Of a stretch of DNA of 64,000 bases, positions 1,958 through 9,144 are shown one piece after another (positions within the stretch are counted from its first letter, which is position 1; every line of letters starts with the position of its first letter). The DNA comes from Bacteroidetes bacterium GWB2_32_14 (GTDB lineage: Bacteria; Bacteroidota; Bacteroidia; Bacteroidales; UBA12077). The notes beneath the pieces are model-generated. The model searched no databases. It was not told where the DNA came from and saw only the letters and a program-made list of their open reading frames with translations. Made by a program: the position numbers and the translations under genes. Location: NCBI GenBank assembly GCA_001768235.1, contig MENK01000035.1, positions 250,183 to 314,182 of the forward strand. The letters are read 5' to 3'.

Positions 1958-2117
1958 TTTTTATTGATTCCTGTTTAAAATTCCTGTTGCCGGGTAAAAA
2001 ATTAGATATAATTGTTTTTACCATACCATTATTCCTGATAAACTCAACATAAGCCACACCGGGATAAATGTATAGTGATAATCAGGTATATGCAAAAATG
2101 CTGTAAGTGCGGTAGTA
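1958..2117. other. Intergenic stretch, nothing recognised
   Basis: AT-rich spacer between the kinase stop codon and the structured repeat. I see no ORF, clear terminator hairpin or RNA gene in it. Confidence 0.5.
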
Positions 2118-2541
2118 TAACGTGAGTTCGATATAAGAATTAAAAATTATAATTCTAAAACTATTCAAAATACATTGATAATCATTTAGTTTGTTTTGAA
2201 AAATGCTCCATGGGTTAACCTGCCTTTGGCAGGAGCTTAATCTTTGTAGAAGATTAGATTAATGAAGAAAAGCGCACCAACCACAAAATTTTTTGATGTA
2301 AATCAGATATGTGGTGCGCAATGTATATATAGCAATGAGTAATGATTCTCAACTATTTTGTATTTGTACCATTGCGCGTCAAGAAAACCTTGTGCCATAG
2401 AACAATATAGTACTGACGCGCCAATATAAACAAGATAATTTTTCTATAAAGATTAAGCTCCTGCCAAAAGCAGACAAGCCTCTGGAGCATAAACATTAAA
2501 AATATATAGAAATAAATCAGGCTTATATCGAACTCACGTTA
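2118..2541 (+). repeat. MITE-like structured repeat, copy 1
   Basis: About 424 bp bounded by 18-bp perfect terminal inverted repeats: TAACGTGAGTTCGATATA at 2118-2135 and its reverse complement at 2524-2541. The outer flanks read TAGTATA on both sides (2113-2119 and 2540-2546), so it could be a 16-bp TIR with a 7-bp target duplication, or an 18-bp TIR with a 3-bp GTA duplication. Inside are nested inverted repeats: an outer pair around CTGCC..GGCAGGAGCTTAATCTTT (about 2219-2250 against 2442-2472), stem A (2272-2279 with 2312-2319, GCGCACCA/TGGTGCGC) and stem B (2374-2381 with 2414-2421, GCGCGTCA/TGACGCGC). A second copy in opposite orientation is at 8739-9144. No transposase ORF is present, so it would be non-autonomous. 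A short reading frame from 2262 stops after 26 codons and is not conserved in copy 2, which argues for non-coding DNA. Confidence 0.8.
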
Positions 2542-2747
2542 GTATAAAAATTCTTCTTTGCTTAACCGGGCAACACTAATTTTTAAAAACAAATTATTAA
2601 CAGGTATTAATACTTCCCCGGGATTGGGTTTAAAATGTTTATTAATAATTCGGGGAAATTTAAACTTTAAAATTTTAAAATTGTTCATACTCAGATGTTA
2701 ATATTAACATTACAAAAAGATAGTGTTAACTTAATATTTTAATTATA

Positions 2748-8738: not shown

Positions 8739-9144
8739 TAACGAAGTAACTCGTGTATATTAAATATTTTAATGTTTTATGCTCCAGCGGCTTGTCTGCC
8801 TTTGGCAGGAGCACAATCTTTGTAGAAAAATTATCATGTTTATATCGGCGCGTCAGTACTATGTTATTTGATGTTACGAGGTTTTCTTGACACGCAATGG
8901 TACAAACACAAAATAGTTGAGAATCATTACTCATAGCTATATATATACATTGCGCACCACATACCTGATTTGTATCTAAAAATTTTGTAGTTGGTGCGCT
9001 TTTCTTCATTAATCTATTCTACAAAAATTAAGCTCCCATGGAGCATTTTTCAAAACAAACTAAATGATTATCAATGTATTTTGAATAGTTTTAGAATTAT
9101 AAGACAATGATTATATTTTTAATTTTTATATCGAACTCATGTTA
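8739..9144 (-). repeat. MITE-like structured repeat, copy 2 (inverted relative to copy 1)
   Basis: About 406 bp that align along nearly their whole length with the reverse complement of copy 1. The right TIR (TATATCGAACTCATGTTA, 9127-9144) has one change from copy 1; the left end (8739 onward, TAACGAAGTAACTCG) is degenerate. Relative to copy 1 it has lost about 19 bp of one internal arm (near 9029) and gained about 13 bp near 9103. The conserved internal stems are retained, with changes that keep pairing by G-U wobble. The flanks read AGCCACTTAGCGGATTC (8722-8738) and AGCTACTAAGCGGATAC (9149-9165), a 14/17 direct repeat that may be a coincidence. A 93-codon open frame on the minus strand here is not preserved in copy 1 and is probably not a gene. 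Confidence 0.78.

Follow-up and report, generated by a model that had tools for sequence, protein, structure and literature searches.

The repeat at positions 2119-2540 of the stretch analysed here (64,000 nucleotides of contig MENK01000035.1, hereafter the window) is very probably a non-autonomous MITE of the IS982 type with a captured palindromic interior, whose alternative foldings are a by-product and require no regulatory switch. The element proper spans about 422 bp (Table 1), and no open reading frame of at least 60 aa is found within it; it carries no transposase gene. It lies between two plus-strand genes, both named by reading their translations: a polysaccharide-export tyrosine-kinase-like gene that ends at 1957, and a TonB-dependent-receptor-like gene that starts at 2815.

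Table 1. Features of the element, and a second copy, in window positions.
Feature	Position	Strand	Remarks
Left target-site duplication, AGTAT	2114-2118	.	direct repeat with 2541-2545
Left terminal inverted repeat, AACGTGAGTTCGATATAAG	2119-2137	+	perfect inverted match to 2522-2540
Left long arm: hairpin GCTCC..GGAGC, then AATCTTTGTAGAA	2203-2251	+	49 nt, 84% complementary to 2442-2490; homologous in copies
Stem A, left arm, GCGCACCA	2272-2279	+	pairs with 2312-2319
Stem A, right arm, TGGTGCGC	2312-2319	+	pairs with 2272-2279
Bridge, left arm, GCGCAATG	2316-2323	+	GCGC common to stem A
Bridge, right arm, CATTGCGC	2370-2377	+	GCGC common to stem B
Stem B, left arm, GCGCGTCA	2374-2381	+	pairs with 2414-2421
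Stem B, right arm, TGACGCGC	2414-2421	+	pairs with 2374-2381
Right long arm: TTCTATAAAGATT, then hairpin GCTCC..GGAGC	2442-2490	+	49 nt, pairs with 2203-2251
Right terminal inverted repeat	2522-2540	-	perfect partner of 2119-2137
Right target-site duplication, AGTAT	2541-2545	.	direct repeat with 2114-2118
Second, more decayed MITE copy, right end degenerate	8740-9143	-	84% identity (C35:258949-259330); core 202 bits, model R1

The two ends form a perfect inverted match of 20 bp (2118-2137 and 2522-2541), in which the outermost base at either end is already part of the target duplication. A preliminary description of the element had given perfect terminal inverted repeats of 18 bp; they are indeed perfect, but their length is 19 bp once the base of AGTAT is set aside. 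Direct repeats of at least 4 bp (4-5 bp) adjoin six of the eight complete elements or ISs with these termini (binomial P ~4e-9 against base composition), as compared with 4 of 56 in a control where the flanks were re-paired.

Termini of this type also stand 1.0 kb apart on contig C3 of the same genome, where they enclose an intact transposase of 303 aa. The ends of this IS, AACGTGAGTTCGATTTAAG and AACGTGAGTTCGACGTAAG, match the MITE end, and its transposase (C3:151822-152730), which belongs to IS982 (NF033520, E = 1e-78; Pfam DDE_Tnp_1_3), has no further full-length counterpart of its type in the genome. In other families of the order (G191, G155) these termini flank interiors of unrelated sequence, which argues that the ends are the mobile part. 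An IS982-family DDE transposase would recognise the 19-bp ends and move the MITE in trans, with a target duplication of 4-5 bp arising on insertion, and we infer that the C3 transposase acts as the mobiliser. A contig classed as viral (IMGVR_UViG_3300022753_003446; L049, 3299-4370) also contains a transposase gene of the IS982 family together with these ends, and phages may thus carry the parent IS between hosts.

In the element's own genome 21 matching stretches were found, self-matches of the arms included, and 18 sites match the terminal repeat within 2 mismatches as against 1 for the reversed control. The hairpin core has three further well-aligned copies and one partial copy in this genome, one of them inside the window. 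Long copies consist of two GCTCC..GGAGC hairpins around a core of stem A, a middle arm and stem B, and short copies (e.g. L010, about 180 bp) of the two arms and a single such hairpin. Dispersed copies, for which the preliminary description had proposed a genome search, are thus present in the own genome, and also in two other species of the genus; together with the matching IS982 ends, the target duplications and the missing transposase gene they bear out its reading of a MITE-like repeat. One copy on contig C24 (L007, 1197-1634), with the same ends and the target duplication ATAAT, has a different nested inverted repeat as its interior (CACTATTGTCC..GGACAACAGTG). Another copy on C24, near 254,500, is adjoined by a tandem repeat resembling the end of a CRISPR array (L006, about 1200-1450; repeat GTTGTGGTTTGATGTAATTTCAAGATGATAAAAAAC with spacers of about 30 bp).

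All pairings of the nested stems were found where they had been placed; stems A and B and the bridge comprise 8 bp each, and the bridge is perfectly paired in the window copy. The RNA fold of the whole element is far more stable than expected (z = -13.9), mainly owing to the long arms, while for the core by itself z is -3.1 in the RNA fold and -2.75 in the DNA fold; no consensus structure emerged for the middle arm across copies. The stems and the bridge had been proposed to form mutually exclusive foldings. This description did not hold, since what A, B and the bridge share is only the self-complementary GCGC, and the other half of the bridge (AATG/CATT) can pair alongside A and B. An exchange of GCGC partners gives a second isomer from the same four arms, as in a branch-migrating four-way junction, and the two foldings are therefore largely isomers of one such junction. 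An integron attC site was also considered and rejected: the RYYYAAC ... GTTRRRY core sites are absent, and stems A and B by inspection end in GCGC.

Conservation of the stems was assessed in ten aligned copies, the only ones that align well. In stems A and B, 98.1% of the base-pair cells hold standard pairs; double (compensatory) changes occur at two pairs of stem B, the remaining changes being mostly G-U wobbles. For the bridge the figure is 95.0%, with one double change in L002, another in L022, and four mismatched cells spread over L004, L043 and L078. Covariation in the stems, on which the preliminary description had made its reading depend, is thus present in stem B as well as in the bridge, which leaves the bridge a small probability. 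Two independent bridge double changes were reached in 9 of 500 shuffles, a test that ignores the relatedness of the copies. At the fourth pair of stem B a C-G has become U-A in the two most divergent copies (L075 and L078), whereby A and B are kept and the outer pair of the alternative becomes C-A and is broken. This change is one event common to two relatives, and may be taken as a pointer rather than as proof. In a tree of the copies the only resolved split sets the two divergent copies of the related species G001 apart from the rest.

The preliminary description had further suggested a switch-like design, possibly a transcription attenuator. That the element acts as a conformational switch, an attenuator or riboswitch-like RNA whose transcripts alternate between A plus B and the bridge, is in our judgement most improbable. 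The near-equal RNA energies of the two states in the window copy (-40.6 vs -40.5 kcal/mol) speak for it, as do the bridge double changes, which are more than shuffling readily yields. However, as RNA the bridge comes within 2 kcal/mol of A plus B, or is better, in only three of the ten copies (within this range in the window copy and L022, and in L002 with A plus B disfavoured), whereas A plus B is ahead by 3 to 10.5 kcal/mol in the other seven, and in DNA folds its lead is 2-9 kcal/mol throughout the ten copies. The mismatches in three copies also count against it, and the two folds are not jointly conserved among homologues, as would be typical of a riboswitch or attenuator, with the bridge competitive in three of ten copies and the stem-B change breaking the alternative in two. 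Neither a terminator nor a constant gene context is seen: the copies adjoin unrelated genes with no shared neighbour or downstream gene, and a terminator consensus scan of this copy gave no hit, although the scan allows loops of 3-8 bases so that the long-loop A and B fall outside it. Rfam searches at gathering and relaxed thresholds returned nothing credible (the best, SNORA18, has E 0.29 and reaches 20.8 bits where the gathering score is 70). We conclude that a functional switch is unlikely, that a kept structure of A and B is plausible, and that the element is most simply explained as a passive MITE.

A kept structure could mean that the A and B hairpins, with the weak middle arm and the long outer stem forming a cloverleaf or four-way junction, are selected without any switch, for instance as a protein-binding or RNA-processing hairpin. 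This is a tentative possibility, somewhat against the balance of the evidence. It agrees with the high proportion of paired A and B cells, with the compensatory and mostly wobble changes described above, and with the divergent copy L084, which retains a 7-bp hairpin of a different sequence at the position of B (GCCCTGT/ACAGGGC, read by eye). On the other hand, the copies and the independent events are few, the middle arm contributes no consensus structure, and template switching in quasi-palindromes can give the same paired changes without selection; such correction is known in E. coli (reported in PMC7202029). The persistence of A and B may accordingly reflect selection on a hairpin of DNA or RNA, or else the correction of quasi-palindromes during replication. 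It is unlikely that the elements serve gene ends as terminators of transcription or as insulators. Of the copies with IS982 ends, about 7 of 14 sit between convergent genes, and among those with classifiable neighbours a single one sits between divergent genes, a convergent bias with a crude Fisher P of 0.002 against the window's own intergenic gaps (the base rate being from mechanical ORFs); in G001, moreover, T runs come after the stem-B hairpins (L081, GACACGCTTTTTT). Such placement is expected of terminator-like elements, but also of insertions tolerated at gene ends. The same bias would follow from the loss of insertions that part a promoter from its gene, and this copy has no terminator-like site within the loop range of the scan.

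The non-autonomous MITE is therefore retained as the preferred reading, and related species indicate where its interior may have come from. A covariance model of the core matched 15 places at E < 1e-5, which belong to the own species, G001 and G019, all three of the same genus. A fourth species of the genus, G007, has a single marginal match (E 0.007), and no match lies outside the genus among 295 genomes drawn across the order. An order-wide search with the stem-B pattern likewise gave no match outside the genus, and a 23-base stem-A pattern searched in all GTDB species matched only in two Bacteroidetes MAGs, bin_153 and GWA2_31_9b. Ten matches of the stem-A pattern in viral contigs have flanks that are all unrelated and were judged to be due to chance.

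In G001 the core module occurs without IS982 ends at three places (L075, L078 and L081), partly in tandem. The order in L081 is B, hairpin 1, hairpin 2, A; in L075 the same unit is followed by the middle spacer and a second B, and in L078 (G001:C61) two identical B hairpins, direct repeats about 300 bp apart (945-994 and the region of 1241-1290), flank the rest of the module. The outward ends of the G001 module read ATTGCG... and ...GCGCAAT, and thus the window bridge looks, from an alignment by eye, like two such ends facing each other across the spacer. The core (arms A, middle and B) of the nested palindrome inside the MITE is homologous to this free module, and most likely the MITE captured an older palindromic module, although the events may also have run in the reverse direction. 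The two foldings, largely branch-migration isomers around four GCGC copies, would then be a by-product of palindromic ancestry. It is quite improbable that the core is a selected four-way junction whose four GCGC segments let it shift by branch migration from one isomer to the other, and that a palindromic element of the genus used it in the form of single-stranded DNA or RNA before it was packaged in IS982 ends. A palindromic unit in another family of the order (TTTTCTACAAATAT-hairpin-hairpin-GGAATATTTGTAGAA; L109, 1340-1420) resembles hairpins 1 and 2 of the G001 module, and units of this type may be a widespread Bacteroidota repeat.

This MITE of the IS982 type, from an uncultured genus of the Bacteroidota, is well documented, and its likely parent lies in the genome that carries it. 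The case also illustrates that an apparent folding switch can arise where neighbouring hairpins share a self-complementary tetranucleotide, and the presence of the hairpin module both inside and outside IS982 ends points to a way in which older palindromes may be built into elements of this kind.

Structured intergenic repeats of bacteria, such as ERIC, NEMIS/Correia and REP/BIME, are dispersed and palindromic and can fold as RNA. The present element resembles them in all these respects, by description rather than by sequence, but differs in its IS982-family ends and in a core found only in one Bacteroidota genus. Another counterpart is MITECca01 of Cardinium, also of the Bacteroidota, a MITE of about 240 bp derived from IS982 (ISCca4) (PMC9769881). 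Both have a Bacteroidota host, no transposase gene, and ends resembling an IS982-family IS of the same genome, whereas the element described here is longer at about 422 bp, has a nested multi-hairpin interior, and shares no visible internal sequence with its parent IS. As a mobile element it is thus of an ordinary kind; what is unusual is its interior.
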